A stretch of 64,000 bases of DNA from Acidobacteriota bacterium (lineage in GTDB: Bacteria; Acidobacteriota; Vicinamibacteria; Vicinamibacterales; 2-12-FULL-66-21), in NCBI GenBank assembly GCA_003222675.1, contig QHWT01000046.1:115987-179986 (forward strand), read 5' to 3'. A program made the translations under genes and the position numbers. Below the pieces are notes generated by a model. The model searched no databases, was not told where the DNA came from, and was given only the letters and a program-made list of their open reading frames with translations. Shown piece after piece: positions 6,414-15,851 of the stretch (its first letter is position 1; the number at the start of each line of letters is the position of its first letter).

Positions 6414-6455
6414 CCAACGCGCACACCGACAAGATGTCTGACGTGTGCGCGTTGG
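6414..6455 (-). terminator. Hairpin after the S8 protease gene
   Basis: Perfect 13-bp inverted repeat CCAACGCGCACAC / GTGTGCGCGTTGG with a 16-nt loop, 20 nt past the protease stop. It probably ends the long operon starting near 15.8 kb. The rest of the 256-bp spacer to the tRNA holds imperfect GGCTCA-type heptamers near 6300-6335 and no gene. Confidence 0.6.
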
Positions 6456-6474: not shown

Positions 6475-7824
6475 TTATCTCAGGACGCGCTGCAGGGCGG
6501 CGTACAGATCCAACCGCCCCTCGCCCATGTCCTGCCCGATCCGCTTTGCGCGACTCAGCGCCTCCTGCGCATTGTTCGGCTCGATGCCCGGCACCAGCTG
6601 TTCGAGGAGCGCCGCCGCGCCGGTGACGAGCGCGGCGCTGAACGACGTACCCGAGACCGCGGCGTAGCGGCCTCCAGGGAACGCCGTGATTAATCCCTCG
6701 CCCGGCGCAGCCAGACGCACAAGCCCGTTGCCATAGTTCGAGAAGGCGCTGCGCTGATCCAGGTTGTTGCTCGAGCCGACGCCGATCACGTGCCGGAACG
6801 CGGACGGAAACACCAGCGTCTCTTCCCCATTGTTGCCCGCGGACGCCACGCAGATCACATCGTGCTCGTTCGCGTAGTTGACCGCGCGCAGGAGCTCGGC
6901 GGACCAGTTCTGGAGACTGAAGCTCATATTGATAACTTTTGCGCCGTGATCGACCGCGTAGTAGATCGCCCGCACCACGTCGAAGACGTCTCCGGCGCCG
7001 TCCGCCGTGAATGCCGTCAACGGCATGATTTGCGTCGTCGGCGCGACGAGCCTGATGAGACCCGCCACCATCGTGCCGTGTCCGAACGCGGGCGGCAGGC
7101 CCTCCCCTTCGAGGATCGCCGCGGTGGACTGCTCGAGGATCGCCGCCGTGGACTGGTTCACGTTCGCGGCCTGCATCGGTTCGCCGATGCGTTCGCCTTC
7201 GAGGATTGCCGCGGTCGATTGCGACACGCTGCCGAGATCCGACGTGATCGCGACCTGGTTGCGGATGAAATCGTAACCGGGGACGATCGCCCCCGCGAGC
7301 GCGGGATGGTTGACGTCAATGCCGGTGTCGATGATCGCGACGGTGCCGCCGCCCGTGGCAAACAACGTGTGGACAATCGGCGCGTTGATCAGCATTGCCG
7401 CGGGCTGATACGCGTAACCGCGCCAGACATTCCGTCCGTAGTACGGGATGATCGTGCGGTCGGGCAGCGTTTCCAGGATCGCGGCGGTTGATTGGGCCAG
7501 ACGCGGATGAATTGCCTCCGGCACGCGGACCGAGCGGTTTTCCTCGAAGGCGGTGATCTCGGTGTCGGCGTTGAAATCCTGGGAGAGCCCCGGTGTGTCC
7601 ATTGCAGGGACAGCCAGGAACATGATCACGCCGCTGCCGTCGTTGACTTGACCCACGATCGACAACCCGTGTCGCGCCGCCACTATCGGCGCATTGTCTG
7701 GCGTCGCCCGAAGCAGGAATTGCGGCGGCCCTCCGTTTCCGGGACCCGGACCCTGGCCTGCCACCACCGGCGCACCCGCGACCGCGAGGAGGCCAATCAG
7801 CAGGAGTCTGCGCAGGTTCCGCAT
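6475..7824 (-). CDS. Secreted S8 subtilisin-family protease with four QSTAAILE repeats
   Basis: Exported subtilase (449 aa from the ATG at 7824, which lies just after the preceding stop at 7835). Signal peptide at residues 1-24 (RRLLLIGLLAVAGAPVVAG), a propeptide-like region to about 145, then the catalytic domain with Asp166 (AIIDTGID), His249 (GHGTMVAG), oxyanion Asn331 or Asn332 (SAGNNG) and Ser394 (SGTSFSAAL). The octapeptide QSTAAILE occurs four times: 111-118 at the end of the pro-region and 202-209, 224-231 and 232-239 in an inserted loop just before the catalytic His. The four copies differ only at synonymous positions. It is the last gene of a seven-gene chain with a TPR-CHAT protein and a sigma factor. 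Target unknown; an active extracellular or periplasmic protease is likely. Confidence 0.93.
   Translation of the reverse strand: MRNLRRLLLIGLLAVAGAPVVAGQGPGPGNGGPPQFLLRATPDNAPIVAARHGLSIVGQVNDGSGVIMFLAVPAMDTPGLSQDFNADTEITAFEENRSVRVPEAIHPRLAQSTAAILETLPDRTIIPYYGRNVWRGYAYQPAAMLINAPIVHTLFATGGGTVAIIDTGIDVNHPALAGAIVPGYDFIRNQVAITSDLGSVSQSTAAILEGERIGEPMQAANVNQSTAAILEQSTAAILEGEGLPPAFGHGTMVAGLIRLVAPTTQIMPLTAFTADGAGDVFDVVRAIYYAVDHGAKVINMSFSLQNWSAELLRAVNYANEHDVICVASAGNNGEETLVFPSAFRHVIGVGSSNNLDQRSAFSNYGNGLVRLAAPGEGLITAFPGGRYAAVSGTSFSAALVTGAAALLEQLVPGIEPNNAQEALSRAKRIGQDMGEGRLDLYAALQRVLR
7108..7494 (-). repeat. Four QSTAAILE-coding 24-bp repeats
   Basis: Copies at 7108-7131, 7132-7155, 7198-7221 and 7471-7494 each encode QSTAAILE. 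Their DNA differs at several third codon positions (for example CAG/CAA, TCC/TCG/TCA, GAA/GAG) but the peptide is identical, which points to selection on the peptide. Confidence 0.9.
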
Positions 7825-7834
7825 GACGAACCTC

Positions 7835-8506
7835 TTACGTTTCACGTCCGGCATTTTCATGATTCGAAGCGGGCTTGAGGAGCCGTGACAGCGGCACGTC
7901 GAGTCCCGTTTGCTCTCCAAACAGAATGCGCAGCCGCATTTGCGCGTGGGCGTCGTAGTCGAAATGGAATTCGCCGAACGCATTCACTGACGGACGCGCC
8001 ACGACGTTCCGCCGATCGATCAGCAAGACCGATACCGGGTCGATCGGCGTCCCGGCGCGCGTTTCCATGCGCGGCGTAACCTGTCCGACGATCGACACAC
8101 GACGCACACCGTGTTCTCGGTCGATACGCAAATCAATGAAGAAGTCATCCGCGCGGTAGAGAACACGACGCGTGACACTGTTGCTGGCGCGCACGCCCGC
8201 GGGCAACGGCTGGCGCAAGCTGTCGAAAATCAGCCGCGGCAGCAGACGATGTGTCAGCGGTTCGACTCGGCGTGACGGGATCGCAAAGATGTCCGCCGCG
8301 CGGGCGATTACCGTGGATGGGGGATCCCATTGCCCCTCGTCGCGCGCTGTCGACGCAATCTGACGGTACAGCGTCACGGCACGCGGGCAACGTCCGCACC
8401 CGGTGGCCAGGTGCCGCTCGATCCGCCGGCGCACGGCCGGCGCTGACACACCGCGCACGAAATCGGCCGCATCTGTCGCAGTCAGATGTTTAACCAATCG
8501 CTTCAT
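7835..8506 (-). CDS. Zinc-finger (ZAS/HC2-like) protein with C-terminal beta-rich domain
   Basis: A 223-aa soluble protein without signal peptide or membrane segment. The N-terminus resembles anti-sigma zinc fingers: RIERHLATGCGRC gives His32-x4-Cys37-x2-Cys40, one residue longer than the classic His-x3-Cys-x2-Cys spacing. Residues from about 110 to 210 look beta-rich and resemble the carboxypeptidase-regulatory-like domains often joined to such fingers in acidobacteria. It sits 76 nt after the CHAT gene and 10 nt before the S8 protease gene. It may be the anti-sigma or adaptor partner of the sigma factor at 11441-12046, but lacking a membrane anchor it would act in the cytoplasm. Function is inferred from context. 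Confidence 0.7.
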   Translation of the reverse strand: MKRLVKHLTATDAADFVRGVSAPAVRRRIERHLATGCGRCPRAVTLYRQIASTARDEGQWDPPSTVIARAADIFAIPSRRVEPLTHRLLPRLIFDSLRQPLPAGVRASNSVTRRVLYRADDFFIDLRIDREHGVRRVSIVGQVTPRMETRAGTPIDPVSVLLIDRRNVVARPSVNAFGEFHFDYDAHAQMRLRILFGEQTGLDVPLSRLLKPASNHENAGRET

Positions 8507-8582
8507 TCCTCTCGCCTTGGGGGATTTGACGCTCGTGCATGAGGGGATTCAGCTTCATCGGAAGATATAGGGGGACGCGAAC

Positions 8583-11444
8583 TTAATTTGCGTTCCGCCG
8601 CCTCTGGCGGGCGCCGATCAGTACAAATGGCGCCCAGTGATAGGGATGCGGGTCTTCCTCACGCGTCGCGAGCATCGCGTCGCGAAGGGCGCCGGCCCGA
8701 TCAGGCGTCTGGCGAAGCCGCTGATAGAAGCGCCCCATCAGGCTCGCCGTGCTCCGATCGTTGACGTCCCACAGCGACACCAGGACCGACTGCGCCCCCG
8801 CGTAGAGCCATCCTCGCACGAGCCCCAGCAGCTCGTCGCCGCCAATCAGGGCGTTCAGGCCGGTACCGCAACCGCTCAAGGTCACGAGCTCGGCCGAAAT
8901 CCGGAGGTCGTAGAGGTCGAAGAGACTGAGCGGCGCGTCTGCCAGCTGGATCGCCGAGAACATCGGGTTGTCCACGCGAAAAGCCGCATGCGTGGCGACG
9001 TGGATGATCCCGCTGCGCGGCGCTTCGCGCTGGAGACGGGCGACGGTTGCGCGGCGTCCTCTGAATACGCGTGATCGCGGCAGCGCCGCCGCGACCGCGT
9101 TCACCTCAGCGTCGATGTGTGGCGTAGCCTCGTCAGAGACTCCGAGGACAAGTGACGTGTGGCGCTGCGTGCCGCGCTTCTGCCGGCACAAGTGCAGCAC
9201 GCTCGCGCTCGGTGCGTAGCAGATCGGCGCCGCGTCAATCAGGTACGCCGCACCGTCATGCAATGCATGGAAGGGAACGTAGTGCAGGAATCCGTGCGGC
9301 ACGACGATCAACGAGCGTCCATCGAGCCGATCGCGCACCGGCGCGATCAGCCTCTGGTACAGCGCCTGCAGATGCGCGGTGGTCGCGGCTTCGATTGCCG
9401 GCGCAAACTGACGCTGATAGTCGGGGCCGAGCCGGAACTTCGACAGCTGGAACTGCAGCAGCTGCGCGTGCTCGCGTATGTCGTCCAGTCCTCCGAGCGG
9501 CACGATATCGAAGGAATGGGGCCCGATCAGGCACGCGCAGAGCGCGCCGCGCGCGGCGTAGTACTCGATGATGATTTCATCCGCGGCAAGCGACGTCTGC
9601 ACGGCGGGCAGGTCGACAATGCCCGCGTTCTGGAGCGCGGCATATTCGGTGTCGGCGACGCGGATCTGCGTCAAGGCCCGCGCGATTTCGCTTTCGAGCT
9701 GGCGCGCGCGTGCGCGCAGCGGCTCAACGCGCGTGCGCGACCGGTCCGCGCTCAACTCGCGGATGTCGATCTCGCGGTAGCACCAGTTCAACGACTCGCG
9801 GAGCTGATGCAGACGCCGGACGGGCACTCGCGTGCCGGCGGTGCGGGCAGACATCGCGTGCGCGCGGAACGCGATCAGATCGGCGAGGCTGCGCGACTTC
9901 GCCTGTTCGATGAACGTGAATGCGCCGGCCCGACTCACTCTCGGTCCGCCGGCGAGCGCGACAGCGACGACGCTCTCGTACACGACGAGCTTGTCCTTCA
10001 GGAACGCAATCTTGATCTCGTCGGCACGCAGATCCGTGCGCACGCTTTCGAGCCACGCGTGCGCATCGAGGTACGCGTCGGCTGCCGCATCCGCGCGTCC
10101 CATCGCTTCCGCGATCTGTCCCAGGACGAAACTCGCCTGGAACCGCAGCGCCGGCGCCTGCGTGGTCGCGAGCCGCTCGAGCGCTGCATGACACCAGCGC
10201 TCCGCGGTCGTCGGGTCGCCCGCACGCAACGCGACGCGTGCAAGCACCAGCTCGGCGAGCGCGGCCTTGGCCGCGAGAGCAGTCTCGAGAAACACGAGCT
10301 GCGCCGCCTCCGCGAGCTCGCGTGCCTCGTGCAACCGGTCAGCGTCGAGCAGCACGATTGCCTCGTAGAGATCCAGCAGCGCGAGCCATGGGCGGTTGCG
10401 CTCGCGGCGGAAGCGGTGACGCGCCTGCGCGAAGCTGTGCAGCGCCTGTTCCGGCTCTCCGGACTGCGTCGCCGCGATCGCGCGCCACGTGAGCGCTTTC
10501 GCGGCTTCGTAGTGCATCCCGAGCTCGTCGAAGCGCAAGAACGCCTGTCGGCCGAGGCGTGCGCCTTCTTCCGTGAGGTTCAGTTCGAGCGACAGCTCGG
10601 ACTGGTCCAGATCGCAGAGCGCCTGGTGATAACGATCGCCGAGCCGCACGCAGCGCCGCCGGGTCGCCTCGTACAGCTCGATGGCGCGCGAATATTCGCC
10701 GCGGAGGTAGTACAGGTACGCGATGTTGTAGTCCGCTTCGGCGACGAGCAGCGGAAGCGTGTGGCGTTCGCTGTAGCGACGCGCCTGCTGATAGGTCGCC
10801 TGAGCCTGATCGAAGTGATTCAGGCTGATGAGACAAACGGCGAGGTTGCGCAGCGCAATCGCCACGTCGTTTGGCGCGCCGACGCGCGCCAGCATCCGGT
10901 GCGCGCGCCGATACAGCGCGAGCGCTTCTTCGAACCGATCCTGCCGGTAGAGGACGTTGGCAAAATTGGAGTCGAGCCGCGCGAGACGGAGCCGATCGCC
11001 GGCGCGCTCAAAGATCGTGCGGGCCTGTCGCGCCCACGACTGGGCGGTCGCATACCGCCCGAGATAGATGAGGGCCTGCAGGCCGCCGCTGCGCGTGATG
11101 GCTTCCTCGAGCGGCTTGCGTGCCTTGCGAAACCGCACTATCGCGGCTTGATAGGCGACGACCGCGGCTTCGGAACGCCCTTCGAGGAGGAACACATGGC
11201 CCATCGCGCGCAGCGACCGGCCGGCCGCGTGGTCGCTGCCGATCGAGGCGGCGAGCCACTCGGCCGATTCGGCGAGCCGCTGCGCCTGCGGGAGGTCGAC
11301 GCGGCCGCGTATCGGGACGAGATCGGTAATCCGCTCGAGCAGCGCGACATCGCGGGGCACCTTCGATCGATCGAGCGCGCGGCGTCGCAGCTCCTCGTCG
11401 GCCGTTGTCGCAAGCACTTCGATGAGGCGATCGGCGGGGCTCAT
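8583..11444 (-). CDS. TPR-CHAT protein (caspase-fold protease with tetratricopeptide repeats)
   Basis: A 953-aa cytoplasmic protein. Residues from about 70 to 520 are helical TPR repeats (for example FANVLYRQDRFEEALALYRRA, NIAYLYYLRGEYSRAIELYE). The C-terminal third is a CHAT domain: IVVPHGFLHYVPFHAL, IIHVATHAAF with catalytic His819, VTLSGCGTGL with catalytic Cys859, and the terminal PYHWAPFVLIGA. The dyad is intact, so peptidase activity is likely. The ATG at 11444 overlaps the sigma factor stop (ATGA), so the two are translationally coupled; the upstream in-frame extension to 11603 lies inside the sigma gene and is rejected. CHAT proteins are caspase relatives that cut defined partner proteins when the TPR part senses a signal. 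A downstream partner could be the S8 protease or the zinc-finger protein, but that is speculation. Confidence 0.9.
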   Translation of the reverse strand: MSPADRLIEVLATTADEELRRRALDRSKVPRDVALLERITDLVPIRGRVDLPQAQRLAESAEWLAASIGSDHAAGRSLRAMGHVFLLEGRSEAAVVAYQAAIVRFRKARKPLEEAITRSGGLQALIYLGRYATAQSWARQARTIFERAGDRLRLARLDSNFANVLYRQDRFEEALALYRRAHRMLARVGAPNDVAIALRNLAVCLISLNHFDQAQATYQQARRYSERHTLPLLVAEADYNIAYLYYLRGEYSRAIELYEATRRRCVRLGDRYHQALCDLDQSELSLELNLTEEGARLGRQAFLRFDELGMHYEAAKALTWRAIAATQSGEPEQALHSFAQARHRFRRERNRPWLALLDLYEAIVLLDADRLHEARELAEAAQLVFLETALAAKAALAELVLARVALRAGDPTTAERWCHAALERLATTQAPALRFQASFVLGQIAEAMGRADAAADAYLDAHAWLESVRTDLRADEIKIAFLKDKLVVYESVVAVALAGGPRVSRAGAFTFIEQAKSRSLADLIAFRAHAMSARTAGTRVPVRRLHQLRESLNWCYREIDIRELSADRSRTRVEPLRARARQLESEIARALTQIRVADTEYAALQNAGIVDLPAVQTSLAADEIIIEYYAARGALCACLIGPHSFDIVPLGGLDDIREHAQLLQFQLSKFRLGPDYQRQFAPAIEAATTAHLQALYQRLIAPVRDRLDGRSLIVVPHGFLHYVPFHALHDGAAYLIDAAPICYAPSASVLHLCRQKRGTQRHTSLVLGVSDEATPHIDAEVNAVAAALPRSRVFRGRRATVARLQREAPRSGIIHVATHAAFRVDNPMFSAIQLADAPLSLFDLYDLRISAELVTLSGCGTGLNALIGGDELLGLVRGWLYAGAQSVLVSLWDVNDRSTASLMGRFYQRLRQTPDRAGALRDAMLATREEDPHPYHWAPFVLIGARQRRRNAN

Positions 11445-12046
11445 AGTGCGAACCCCGCGCGGCCGAGCGCGCGCTCGAGCTTCCTGAGGCACCGCCCGCG
11501 GATGAACCCGATGGACCCGGTCGCGAGACCGAGGCGCCGCGCGACGTCGGCATAGGAGAGCGGCGGGTCCTCGTAGAAGAGCAGCCGGATCATCTCGCGG
11601 CATCGCGGCGGAAGACCGCGAACCGCGTCACGCAGGATCTGCTCGCGTTCCGCGGCTTCGATGATCTCTGGCGGTACCGGCTCGTTGCCGCGCGAGGTGT
11701 CCGGTTCGATCTCAGTCCCCTCGCGCGTCGCGCGCTTCACGGCGCGCCGCTTCCAATGGAATGCCTGGTGCGCGGTCACCGAAATCAGCCACGACCGGAG
11801 GCTCTCGACCTTGCGCAGCCGCGGAAGCTCCGCGTACAGCTCGAGGCACACGGCCTGGAAGATATCTGCGGCGTCCGCCGGCTGCGCCCCGTAGCGCGCC
11901 GGGATGGAATAAATCAGGCGGCGATAGCGGTGAATGAGGACGGACCAGGCCTCCTGATCTCCGTCCCGACATGCCTGGATCAGCCGTCCATCGTCCCAAT
12001 CCTCGCGTTCCGGCCGCCGCGGCGCGACTGTAGACCGTGCTGCCAT
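11441..12046 (-). CDS. ECF-like RNA polymerase sigma factor
   Basis: 201-aa sigma-70 family factor of region 2 plus region 4 type. Region 2 is at about residues 25-100 (AWSVLIHRYRRLIYSIPARY, DIFQAVCLELY, LRSWLISVTAHQAF) and region 4 at about 135-195 (LPPRCREMIRLLF, LSYADVARRLGLATGSIGF, RGRCLRKLERAL). It directs RNA polymerase to its own promoters, probably including this operon. The ATG at 12046 overlaps the stop of the upstream binding-protein gene (TGATG); a TTG one codon earlier is possible. Its stop overlaps the CHAT start. No membrane-bound anti-sigma gene is adjacent; the zinc-finger gene two positions downstream is the only candidate. Confidence 0.88.
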   Translation of the reverse strand: MAARSTVAPRRPEREDWDDGRLIQACRDGDQEAWSVLIHRYRRLIYSIPARYGAQPADAADIFQAVCLELYAELPRLRKVESLRSWLISVTAHQAFHWKRRAVKRATREGTEIEPDTSRGNEPVPPEIIEAAEREQILRDAVRGLPPRCREMIRLLFYEDPPLSYADVARRLGLATGSIGFIRGRCLRKLERALGRAGFAL

Positions 12047-13791
12047 CAACGGTCTGGCGCCTGACGCCAGTACAGCTCCTCGACATTCCAGAGGGTGTAG
12101 TGAGGAAGGATCGCGGGCTTGAAATTGGCCAACCCAGCCCGCGCCGCCGCGAGGATGTCCGGGCTCGCCAGGAAGATCATCGGTTCATGCTCGGCGATCA
12201 GCGCCTGCACACGGTCGAAGAGTGTCTTGCGGTCGGCAAATGTACGCGCGCTGATCTGCTGCCGCATCAACGAATCGATCTCCGCCTCCCAAGGCGTCGC
12301 TGGTTTCGCCGCCGACGGGTTCCAGAAGTGGTGATCGCCGCTCGATAACCAGACGGGCATGTCCACGTTTGGATCGGCATCGCCACCCCCAAGGCCGAGA
12401 ATGCAGGCGTCGTAGTCGCGCGTCCTCTGCACGCGATCCACCACCGCCCGCGAATCGAGCGGCACGATGGTGACGCCGATGCCGAGCTGCGCCAGGTCAT
12501 TCTCTATGATCGTGGCCATTTGCTTTCGCGGAACGCTGGTCGCCTGCACGAGGACGGAGAACTCGACGGGCTTGCCGTCCTGATCCTTGAGGGCGCCATC
12601 ATCGCGCCACGAGAAACCCGCCTCTTTGAGCAGCGCTCGCGCGCGCTCGAGCGACCGTGCCGGCCGCGGCAGCGCTCTGTTGTACCACGTGGCGTTGCCG
12701 CGTGTGACCGGCCCCCATAGCGGTTCGCCTTGCCCGCGGTAGACGATCGATACCATGGCCGCGCGATCGATGGCCGCGGACACAGCATGCCTGAACTTCT
12801 CCTCGCGGAACCACCGTTGCCGCGTCGCCAACGCCGGGAGCGTCGCGGCATTGACGTCGTTCAAGTTGAAGAACAGGAAATTGTACTGGAGGCTCGGTCC
12901 GGCGTCGGCGGTTTGATAGCCGCTGCCCGATGACAACGATGCCAACTGATCGCCAGTCAGCTGGCTCACGATGTCGATCTCGCCGGCCTTGAAGCGCAGG
13001 AACTCCGCATCGGAGCTTGGCACAGTCACAAAGACGAGCCGATCGAGGTACGGCAGGGTGCCGCCGTCGCGATCGCGTTTCCAATAATACGGATTACGTT
13101 CGAGCACGATGCGCTGGCCAGGCACGTTCTCGCGAAGCCGAAATGGTCCTGTGCCCACGATCGATTCCGGAGGCGCATCGACGCCCCACGTCCGCGGCAG
13201 CGCTCGCTTCGCGAACGCCTCGCCGAGCACGTGCTTCGGCAGAATCGCAATGGTGTCGAAGATGCGTTCTCCAACGGCATAGGGTTCGGGCATTTTCACG
13301 ACGATGGTCTTGTCGTCCTTCTTTCGGACGTCGATCGGCTTGCCGCCGACGAGGAGCAGGTCGCGCTGCGGCGCGTGGACAGATTCGTCGAGGTACACGT
13401 CGAACGAAAACACCACGTCATCTGCCGTGCATGGATGACCGTCCGAGAATTTCAGATCCGGCCGCAGGTTGATCGTGTACTCGAGGCCGTCTGTCGAAAC
13501 GGACCACGACGAGGCGAGCGCAGGCTCGGTCTTCAGCGTCTGCCGGTTGATGTGGACGAGATCCGCGAACAGCCGATCGAGCACGGCGTGTGTCTGCGCG
13601 TCAGCCGCCAGAACGGGATTGAAGGTGCTGGGCGGCGTCCGCTCGGCGACAACGATCTGGCCTCCGTGCGTCGGTCCGGCGGGTTCGGCGCGGCGTTGAG
13701 TCGCGGGGGCGCCGAGACACACGACAAGGCAGAGGGCGACGCTTCCTGCGCGCACCACTGAGGTGCGCGACGCACCCGTGGAAACCGACAT
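12046..13791 (-). CDS. Peptide-type ABC transporter substrate-binding protein
   Basis: Family 5 extracellular solute-binding protein (581 aa). Signal peptide near residues 10-35 (VVRAGSVALCLVVCLGA). Family motifs include GGQIVVAERTPPSTFNPV, LASSWSVSTDGLEYTINLRP, LKFSDGHPCTADDVVFSFD and FRHAVSAAIDR. It would capture oligopeptides or similar solutes in the periplasm and pass them to the two permeases immediately upstream. The ATG at 13791 lies 10 nt after the permease stop; its own stop overlaps the sigma factor ATG. This tie between an importer component and a regulatory/protease module is unusual. Confidence 0.92.
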   Translation of the reverse strand: MSVSTGASRTSVVRAGSVALCLVVCLGAPATQRRAEPAGPTHGGQIVVAERTPPSTFNPVLAADAQTHAVLDRLFADLVHINRQTLKTEPALASSWSVSTDGLEYTINLRPDLKFSDGHPCTADDVVFSFDVYLDESVHAPQRDLLLVGGKPIDVRKKDDKTIVVKMPEPYAVGERIFDTIAILPKHVLGEAFAKRALPRTWGVDAPPESIVGTGPFRLRENVPGQRIVLERNPYYWKRDRDGGTLPYLDRLVFVTVPSSDAEFLRFKAGEIDIVSQLTGDQLASLSSGSGYQTADAGPSLQYNFLFFNLNDVNAATLPALATRQRWFREEKFRHAVSAAIDRAAMVSIVYRGQGEPLWGPVTRGNATWYNRALPRPARSLERARALLKEAGFSWRDDGALKDQDGKPVEFSVLVQATSVPRKQMATIIENDLAQLGIGVTIVPLDSRAVVDRVQRTRDYDACILGLGGGDADPNVDMPVWLSSGDHHFWNPSAAKPATPWEAEIDSLMRQQISARTFADRKTLFDRVQALIAEHEPMIFLASPDILAAARAGLANFKPAILPHYTLWNVEELYWRQAPDR

Positions 13792-13801
13792 TGTGTTGTC
13801 T

Positions 13802-14824
13802 CTAGAGGCGCGAAACCAGGGGACCCGATCGCAGCGTGCGCGCCAGCGTGTAGTACATAACACAAATGCCGACCAATCCGACGACCGGTGCGAGCAGCCA
13901 CCAGGCTTCTACCAGGACCTGTGGCCGTTGAGCACTCGCCAGCAGCGTGCCCCAGCTCGGGGCCGGTTCCGGCACGCCGAGGCCGAATAACGAAAGTGTT
14001 GTCTCGCCGAGAATGAATTGCGGCACGAGCTGCAGCGCCAGCGGAACGAGCACGACAGGAAGCTGTGGCAGCAGGTGACGGCGCAGCACGTGAGGAGTGG
14101 AGGCGCCCGCTGTCCGCGCGGCGGTTACATAATCGTTCGCTCTGGCGCTTGCAACCACGGCGCGCACGAGACGCGCGGGCCGCGCCCACCCGATCGCGCC
14201 CAGCAGCGCCATGATGATCACGAACGCTTCGGTCGGCGTGAGCGACAGCGGCATGGCTGCCCGGGCGGCGAGCAGCAGATACAGCCATGGGAGCGCGAGC
14301 ACGAGCTCGGTGGCGCCGGAGACGATCGCGTCAACCGTTCCCCCCATATAGCCGGCGAGCGAACCGAGCACGACGCCGAGCGCCAGCGACAGACAGACCG
14401 CGGAAATCGACATCACGAGCGAGATCCGTGCGCCAACCAGCACGCGCGAGAACACGTCCCGGCCGAATTCATCGGTGCCGAACAGGAACATCTCCCCCGG
14501 TTCGTCGACGCTGAACAGGCGCAGGCTCTCGCGCGTGGTGAATCCTGCCGCCGTCGTGCGGCGGACCAACCAGCGGACGAAGTACCTCCTCGAACAGTCT
14601 TCTGTGTAACGAAACGGGATGGCGGTCGACGGCTCGATCGCGCAGACGAACGGCCGAAGATGCCATCGGCCCTGGGCGTCGATCGCATGCACGCGGCTGG
14701 GCGGCGCAAACGCGAGCAGGCGCTGCTGGGCGGCCGGATCGTAGGGGACGAGCCACGGCGCCGCGAGCACGATCGCGTGCACGGCAACGACGACGATCAG
14801 GATCGCCCGTCGCGCCCGTATCAT
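13802..14824 (-). CDS. Peptide-type ABC transporter permease (DppC-like)
   Basis: 340-aa inner-membrane permease. First membrane segment at residues 5-25 (AILIVVVAVHAIVLAAPWLV), then an unusually long periplasmic stretch of about 85 residues with two cysteines before the family motif FGTDEFGRDVFSRVLVGARI. The EAA loop that contacts an ATPase is present (YVTAARTAGASTPHVLRRHL). The ATG at 14824 overlaps the stop of the first permease (ATGA). No ATPase gene is in the cluster, so it must borrow one encoded elsewhere or act without transport. Confidence 0.92.
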   Translation of the reverse strand: MIRARRAILIVVVAVHAIVLAAPWLVPYDPAAQQRLLAFAPPSRVHAIDAQGRWHLRPFVCAIEPSTAIPFRYTEDCSRRYFVRWLVRRTTAAGFTTRESLRLFSVDEPGEMFLFGTDEFGRDVFSRVLVGARISLVMSISAVCLSLALGVVLGSLAGYMGGTVDAIVSGATELVLALPWLYLLLAARAAMPLSLTPTEAFVIIMALLGAIGWARPARLVRAVVASARANDYVTAARTAGASTPHVLRRHLLPQLPVVLVPLALQLVPQFILGETTLSLFGLGVPEPAPSWGTLLASAQRPQVLVEAWWLLAPVVGLVGICVMYYTLARTLRSGPLVSRL

Positions 14825-15813
14825 TGCGCCGTCCGGGCCCGGGGATCGGTGACGTAGAGGACCGCGTCTCCGATCGCATTGCCGCACACCAGGAACAGGG
14901 TCGACACGATGGTGGCGCCGACGATCACGTATTCATCGCGCGAACTGACGGCTTCGAGCAGCAGCGCGCCGAGGCCGGGCCATCCGACCAGCGCTTCGAC
15001 CAGGAGCGACGCGCTGAGCAGCGTGCCGAGCGACAGGCCGCCCAGCGCGGCGAGCGGCGCGGCCGCGAGCCGAAGCGCGTGTCGAACGATCACGCGACGA
15101 CGGGGGAGCCCCCGCGCGGTCAGCGCGAGCGCGAGCGGAAACGGCACGGCCTCCGCCAGCGCGTGCCGGACGTGCTGCAGCAAGCCCGGTGCAATCGAGA
15201 TCACGAGGATGATGACCGGCACCGTCATGTGCCGCGCGAGGTCCACAGCCGCAGCGGTCAGGCCAGGCGCCCGGGCGAGCGATGACATGCCGCCCGCCGG
15301 CAGCCAGCCGGAATGCGCGGCGATCGACAGCAGCACGAGCGTGATGAGCACGTCGGGGAGCGCCAGCAGCGCTGCGGCGAATCCCCCGGCAAGTCGATCC
15401 GGCCAGCGACGGTTCGTCACCGCCGTCGCCAGGCCGACCCCGAGCGCAAGAAGCCACGCAAGTGCGAGCGCGACACCCGTCAGCAGCAGTGTGTTCCCGG
15501 CACGATGCCACAGCAGGCGCTCGACGGGGACGCGGTACTGAAGCGAGTAACCGAAGTGTCCGTGCAGCGCCGCCGTGACCCAGCGCGCATATCGCGTCAT
15601 GAGCGGCGCGTCGAGACCGTACTCCGCGCGCAGCGCCGCGATCGTCGCCGGGCTGATCTGGCGATTCAGCCGCAGCTCGTCGAAGAAGTCGCCCGGTGCC
15701 GCTTCGAGCAGGAGAAAACTGAGAAGGGAGACGCCGAAGAGCAGTACCGCGGCGCGGATCGCGCGTTCGAGGAGGACACGCACGGATGGAAGGGAGCGCG
15801 CGGTTCGCAACAC
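14821..15813 (-). CDS. Peptide-type ABC transporter permease (DppB-like)
   Basis: Inner-membrane permease with about six membrane segments (AAVLLFGVSLLSFLLLEAAPGD, LLLTGVALALAWLLALGVG and others), the family signature YGLDAPLMTRYARWV, and an EAA loop ALTARGLPRRRVIVRHALRL. First gene of the chain that ends with the S8 protease. The start is uncertain: TTG 15813 or GTG 15816 lies right at the hairpin that follows the HU gene, while GTG 15783 gives the more typical N-terminus MRVLLERAIRAAVLLFG (320 aa). No clear ribosome binding site is seen for any of them. Confidence 0.9.
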   Translation of the reverse strand: MLRTARSLPSVRVLLERAIRAAVLLFGVSLLSFLLLEAAPGDFFDELRLNRQISPATIAALRAEYGLDAPLMTRYARWVTAALHGHFGYSLQYRVPVERLLWHRAGNTLLLTGVALALAWLLALGVGLATAVTNRRWPDRLAGGFAAALLALPDVLITLVLLSIAAHSGWLPAGGMSSLARAPGLTAAAVDLARHMTVPVIILVISIAPGLLQHVRHALAEAVPFPLALALTARGLPRRRVIVRHALRLAAAPLAALGGLSLGTLLSASLLVEALVGWPGLGALLLEAVSSRDEYVIVGATIVSTLFLVCGNAIGDAVLYVTDPRARTAQ

Positions 15814-15840
15814 CGGGCCGGACGACCGACGTCCGGCCCG
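15814..15840 (-). terminator. Hairpin after the HU gene
   Basis: Perfect 11-bp inverted repeat CGGGCCGGACG / CGTCCGGCCCG with a 5-nt loop, 12 nt past the HU stop. It separates HU from the permease gene and probably limits read-through into it. Confidence 0.75.
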
Positions 15841-15851
15841 ACGGCGGACGC

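Follow-up and report, generated by a model that had tools for sequence, protein, structure and literature searches.

A conserved seven-gene unit of Acidobacteriota as a candidate peptide-pheromone circuit whose signal would lie within a subtilase

Three described systems come closest to the locus reported here. The RRNPPA quorum-sensing systems of Bacillota, which include tandem Phr propeptides, combine extracellular proteolysis, import by Opp and TPR receptors; CSF is made by subtilisin-type proteases, and the signals are lineage-specific (PMC11343458). In Craspase (type III-E CASP), the trigger is guide-RNA-bound Cas7-11, and the TPR-CHAT protease Csx29 recognizes a neighboring substrate and cuts the sigma inhibitor Csx30, which is proposed to free CASP-sigma (PMC10028731). 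For the ECF54 family of extracytoplasmic function (ECF) sigma factors, the passage in PMC8999054 (section 3.3) gives subtilase, CHAT and carboxypeptidase-domain proteins as conserved neighbors and proposes proteolysis of the sigma factor, without an anti-sigma factor. Here, we analyze a chain of seven genes at positions 6475-15813 of a 64,000-nucleotide stretch of Acidobacteriota DNA (contig QHWT01000046.1; hereafter the window), which encodes parts of a peptide importer, an ECF sigma factor, a TPR-CHAT protein, an anti-sigma factor and a subtilase containing several identical copies of an octapeptide. We put at roughly 0.55 the probability that the locus is a self-contained peptide-pheromone circuit whose pheromone is embedded in the subtilase. 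The genes, and the hairpins at the two edges, are as follows.

14821..15813, minus strand: OppB-like peptide ABC permease (Pfam BPD_transp_1 and BPD_transp_1_N; GTG start; syntenic in other loci)
13802..14824, minus strand: OppC-like peptide ABC permease (Pfam BPD_transp_1; best NCBIfam match Opp4C, below cut-off)
12046..13791, minus strand: peptide-type solute-binding protein, SBP_bac_5 (Pfam E 3.6e-90; syntenic)
11441..12046, minus strand: ECF sigma factor, ECF54-like by gene context (Sigma70_r2/r4, TIGR02937)
8583..11444, minus strand: TPR-CHAT protein (Pfam TPR_12 and CHAT; CHAT E 3e-64)
7835..8506, minus strand: ZAS-type anti-sigma factor (zinc ligands, profile and fold matches)
6475..7824, minus strand: secreted pro-subtilisin S8, 449 residues, with embedded octapeptides (Pfam Peptidase_S8 E 1e-40)
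15811..15843, minus strand: hairpin at the 5' edge (fold z -3.2 against shuffles)
6414..6455, minus strand: terminator-like hairpin at the 3' edge (fold z -3.4 against shuffles)

The layout given by an earlier sequence-only reading of this DNA was borne out in full by open reading frames, Pfam matches and folding: all seven minus-strand genes, the six junctions and the two flanking hairpins were reproduced. The two permease genes overlap by ATGA, as do the sigma and CHAT genes, and the binding protein and sigma genes meet in TGATG; gaps of 10 nucleotides (nt) separate permease from binding protein and the anti-sigma gene, earlier labeled a zinc-finger gene, from S8, and 76 nt lie between CHAT and the zinc-finger gene. 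The OppB-like gene is placed between the ATGA overlap and the 5'-edge hairpin, which is most likely the terminator of an upstream HU gene.

The locus unites functional analogs of the ECF54, RRNPPA and Craspase systems and lies outside the RRNPPA and Craspase families. With RRNPPA it shares a secreted precursor containing short peptides, Opp-type importer genes, a TPR-repeat protein (TPR_12) like the cytosolic receptors, and a lineage-specific peptide. Its precursor, however, is a full-size 449-residue subtilase instead of a small Phr propeptide by the receptor, its effector is a C-terminal caspase-like CHAT domain instead of a helix-turn-helix or a Rap three-helix bundle, and it belongs to a Gram-negative phylum with an ECF sigma factor as output, whereas RRNPPA is known from Bacillota. 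As in Craspase, a TPR-CHAT protease, a sigma inhibitor and an ECF sigma factor are encoded together, but the proposed trigger is a peptide, the anti-sigma factor was unrelated to Csx30 in the searches run, the Csx29 model NF041237 gave a distant match (E 1.5e-15; 57 bits against a cut-off of 300) and no Cas7-11 gene is present in the seven-gene unit. The likeness to ECF54, assigned by gene context, lies in an ECF sigma factor beside CHAT, subtilase and, weakly, a carboxypeptidase-like domain. The sequence-only reading had known of no described system with the full set; the sigma, CHAT, subtilase and carboxypeptidase context is in fact published, while the importer and the peptide are absent from the passage in PMC8999054. 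Unlike in that passage, an anti-sigma domain is part of the carboxypeptidase-type protein here, and the locus has an importer and octapeptides in addition. Literature searches found nothing on the octapeptide and no described peptide system under Acidobacteriota peptide signaling. A role in anti-phage defense was rejected, PADLOC giving only weak generic CHAT and subtilase matches.

The unit is real and conserved. The order sigma-CHAT-zinc finger-S8 recurs across Acidobacteriota at ~40-55% protein identity in many genomes and thus is not due to chance, and the binding protein and OppBC-like permeases adjoin it in ~20 loci from several classes. Loci with all seven genes in a single order include L048, L058, L060, L061, L127, L179, L182, L188, L191, L193, L194 and L196; the unit is re-arranged in L045 (sigma moved) and in L064 and L186 (divergent), and further loci are cut by contig ends. 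The two halves therefore do not occur only apart, and the earlier proposal that importer and sigma/CHAT/S8 genes form one peptide-sensing unit is well supported by this synteny. On contig C33, the window's genome contains a second, paralogous locus that the sequence-only reading did not mention (sigma 62%, CHAT 49%, zinc finger 34% and S8 ~46-49% identical), and no importer adjoins it. Outside the phylum, sigma-CHAT-S8 loci of Modestobacter (Actinobacterial; L071) and Planctomycetota (L068) have neither importer nor octapeptides, and the octapeptide may thus be an Acidobacteriota addition, one locus having been seen per other phylum.

The S8 product has the catalytic triad D166, H249 and S394, a propeptide and a signal-peptide-like N terminus. 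Its AlphaFold (AF2) model (mean pLDDT 79) shows a pro-subtilisin fold, matching pro-subtilisin E in Foldseek (E 3e-24). The octapeptide QSTAAILE, overlooked by the sequence-only reading, occurs in it four times without a mismatch.

7471..7494, minus strand: copy 1, residues 111-118, prodomain/catalytic-domain junction, beside the low-confidence AF2 loop 108-113
7198..7221, minus strand: copy 2, residues 202-209, Asp-His insertion
7132..7155, minus strand: copy 3, residues 224-231, in tandem with copy 4, within 211-240 (pLDDT <50)
7108..7131, minus strand: copy 4, residues 232-239, within 211-240 (pLDDT <50)

Copies 2-4 all lie between the catalytic Asp166 and His249, and most copies fall in flexible segments, as pLDDT is below 50 at residues 108-113 and 211-240. 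Among 45 distinct S8 genes of the family, 38 carry between 2 and 17 octapeptide copies, totaling 142, of which 51 are directly followed by another; the sequence ahead of the catalytic His contained no repeated 7-mer in ~50 other S8 proteins. The 30 distinct octapeptides broadly follow the pattern Q-S-T-x-x-I-L-[DE], in which positions 4 and 5 vary most between genes. Octapeptide identity is 98% within and 62% between genes, the flanks reaching 33-59%. Codon differences between copies, excluding L194, were silent in 546 and amino-acid changing in 23 cases against a mutational opportunity of 1:2.7, which argues that copies are kept alike at the protein level and not by recent DNA duplication, although the ratio is biased by the choice of copies for similarity (≥5/8 to the commonest 8-mer). 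Twin adjacent S8 paralogs share one octapeptide, both having QSTAGILE in L191 and QSTAGILD in L052. From position 10041 of L194 (G382, contig C43), an S8 gene encodes 17 QSTGAILD-type copies, with the repeated spacer GATRKQFGSARGIHRN between blocks of them, an arrangement that by analogy looks like a polyprotein or polypeptide-hormone precursor; in L064 (Holophagae), two copies are placed elsewhere, before the catalytic domain. Across 16 whole genomes, matches to a degenerate octapeptide pattern were confined to the family S8 genes bar one, with none for the reversed control; the stray match (G033, contig C40), in a protein that is neither S8 nor related, was attributed to chance.

The surroundings of the copies suggest how they could be released. 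Before nontandem copies, the residue at -2 is L, V or I in 92% of cases and that at -1 is D, E, N or Q in 75% (background 17%), and the last two residues of the octapeptide are L-[DE] or V-[DE]. Similar residues thus mark either end of the unit, and cleavage after [L/V]-[acidic/amide] would set the octapeptide free.

Two further observations concern the S8 family. An isolated member at L050:9648-11039 (G070), with no sigma or CHAT gene nearby, has lost the entire Asp-His segment, including the octapeptides and the catalytic His, in apparent decay. The S8 proteins of L044, L046 and L047 are extended at the C terminus by a long series of repeated domains (WYLAEGAT...NPG), which may serve surface anchoring.

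The TPR-CHAT protein consists of a TPR superhelix (residues ~50-500) and a caspase-like CHAT protease (~690-945), whose His-Cys dyad H819/C859 is conserved in 25 of 25 loci. Among the regions compared across 20 loci, it was TPR residues 151-325 whose distances correlated best with those of the octapeptides (r 0.52; permutation p 0.0002), and the correlation held when each distinct peptide was represented by a single locus (r 0.49, p 0.0008). The corresponding values were 0.31 and 0.15 (p 0.15) for the S8 catalytic part, 0.30 and 0.24 for sigma, and 0.17 (p 0.10) and 0.24 for the CHAT domain. Both this peptide-TPR covariation and the boundary signature are supported statistically. Nevertheless, the covariation is support and not proof, because in the most restricted set the TPR advantage shrinks, with partial correlations against S8 or sigma down to 0.17-0.20; partial Mantel-type tests can also overstate covariation, and the loci are related.

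The protein encoded between TPR-CHAT and S8 is, judging by its profile and modeled fold, a ZAS-type anti-sigma factor with an N-terminal zinc domain and a C-terminal beta-sandwich; the zinc ligands behind its earlier description as a zinc-finger protein stand, and the label becomes more specific. Pfam alone gave no match and missed the anti-sigma domain. The ligands H7, H32, C37 and C40 are invariant in 12 sequences and follow the ZAS pattern (H/C)-x~25-H-x3-4-C-x2-C with sigma-binding-type helices, and the AF2 model consists of a four-helix N terminus and a C-terminal beta domain. A profile search matched the anti-sigma factors RskA, RsiW and DdvA, Foldseek placed SigE-ChrR at rank 2 (weak, E 0.027), and a relative matched CarboxypepD_reg weakly. 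The zinc-ligand pattern and helical N terminus are those of sensor-fused ZAS anti-sigma factors (ChrR, RskA, RsiW), and a second, C-terminal domain is present as in ChrR; unlike in these proteins, that domain is a carboxypeptidase-regulatory-like beta-sandwich, and no membrane span was seen.

The gap between the CHAT and anti-sigma genes contains a conserved element that the sequence-only reading also overlooked.

8542..8569, minus strand: bipartite promoter-like element, TATATCTT-N16-CCCT

In ~20 loci this gap holds TATAT(T/C)T and CCCT/CTCT at near-fixed, promoter-like spacing. Strict matches to TATATTTT-N-CCCT number just two in the 7.16-Mb genome, at its two such loci: one is the window's gap and the other, at the C33 locus, lies upstream of a divergent glycosyltransferase gene, where a relative (G001) keeps a C33-type site. 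Elsewhere, the element precedes genes for glycosyltransferases (L182, L206), an M36 metalloprotease (L216) and an HD-GYP response regulator (L211). From their upstream sequences, the genes behind TATATTTT-N-CCCT in L201, L208, L182, L206, L216 and L211 are candidate regulon members. Given the conserved element, the anti-sigma and S8 genes may form a second transcription unit that is conserved with the system; the seven genes, first described as a single chain, thus hold as a conserved unit and possibly not as one transcript. A conserved RNA structure in the gap was ruled out (z +1.7).

Opp ATPases (OppDF) are encoded beside the permeases in ~10 loci, giving a complete importer there. The only OppDF-type ATPase pair of the window's genome is on contig C50 (L224, G000), with no Opp permeases beside it, and the same genome has several permease/binding-protein sets elsewhere without ATPases, making an OppDF ATPase common to several permease sets plausible.

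Read from the gene set, the octapeptide repetition and its conservation within genes, the anti-sigma domain, the CHAT dyad and the promoter-like element, our best model is a circuit that would resemble RRNPPA quorum sensing in its working and Craspase in its output. The exported subtilase would be the precursor and probable maturation protease of the octapeptide (QSTAAILE here), held in several copies in flexible segments and freed by cuts after [L/V]-[D/E/N/Q] on both sides. In the earlier proposal, the exported protease made the peptides; their source now appears to be S8 itself, through the embedded identical octapeptides. Uptake of the peptide would be the task of the binding protein and permeases of Opp type, with energy from OppDF ATPases that are either local or shared, and the TPR superhelix would bind its cognate peptide and switch on the caspase-like protease. 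Active CHAT would then cleave the product of the neighboring gene, the ZAS anti-sigma factor, and the freed ECF sigma factor would transcribe the genes behind TATATTTT-N-CCCT, including the anti-sigma-subtilase pair as feedback and outputs such as glycosyltransferases or a secreted protease.

Several findings weigh against this circuit, besides the limits on the codon and covariation statistics given above. No ATPase gene is adjacent to the window's importer genes, exact repeats are absent from 7 of the 45 family members, some of them with an importer (L045, L196), and L011, L044 and L046 have the repeats and no adjacent importer. In the window the boundary holds at two of the four copies, the other two being preceded by A or S. 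The TPR profile matches the Rap receptors RapF (E 2e-6) and RapJ (2e-4) alongside many other TPR proteins and is no closer to the former than to the latter. Finally, the element pattern gave 19 matches in 21 other genomes against 10 for the reversed control, and single sites outside the loci are therefore leads only.

The octapeptide copies might instead serve only as maturation sites, where the subtilase itself or a partner cuts the prodomain junction and the Asp-His loop to activate the enzyme, the identity of the copies being kept by the processing protease and the importer taking up nutrient peptides. Mycosins, the best NCBIfam relatives of the S8 protein, have an inserted loop that is cleaved on maturation, one copy often sits exactly at the prodomain-catalytic junction, and the boundary resembles a P4-P1 site, A-x-L-[DN]. 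We nevertheless regard this as unlikely: the junction copy is missing from ~15 genes, the tandem runs of up to 6 or the total of 17 seen in others exceed the needs of maturation, all eight positions are held within a gene and not P4-P1 alone, octapeptide divergence tracks TPR better than the S8 catalytic part, and the association with the importer would be left unexplained. That last objection applies equally to an account in which the subtilase is a substrate of CHAT, docked through TPR and activated or inactivated by cuts after D/E in the copies, with no peptide import. The copies do end in D or E, like a caspase P1 residue, the TPR covariation would fit substrate docking too, and Csx29 sets a precedent for recognition of a neighboring substrate (PMC10028731). 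However, S8 has a signal-peptide-like N terminus and CHAT has none, so the two could meet only before export, and divergence of the CHAT domain does not go along with that of the octapeptide (r 0.17, p 0.10); we give this account little credence.

We find it slightly less credible still that importer and sigma/CHAT/S8 genes are mere neighbors, nutrient uptake beside a stress regulon without joint function. The absence of an adjacent importer from L011, L044 and L046, and from the Actinobacterial L071 and Planctomycete L068, would fit such independence, but the last two loci are also without octapeptides, and the co-location persists at ~40-55% identity, in several classes and through re-arranged orders (L064, L186, L045).

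On a self-contained pheromone circuit, the locus would represent a new Gram-negative architecture, a wider claim that we advance tentatively, at just short of even odds: a tandem pheromone inside the protease that releases it, a peptide-activated caspase-like receptor, an ECF sigma factor set free, and dozens of distinct octapeptide "languages" across Acidobacteriota. Were this true, quorum sensing by imported peptides would extend to a dominant soil phylum, the ECF54 sigma loci would gain a signal and a mechanism, and a TPR-CHAT protease would be switched on by a peptide instead of CRISPR RNA. The signals would moreover be readable straight from genomes, each locus naming its own synthesizable octapeptide.

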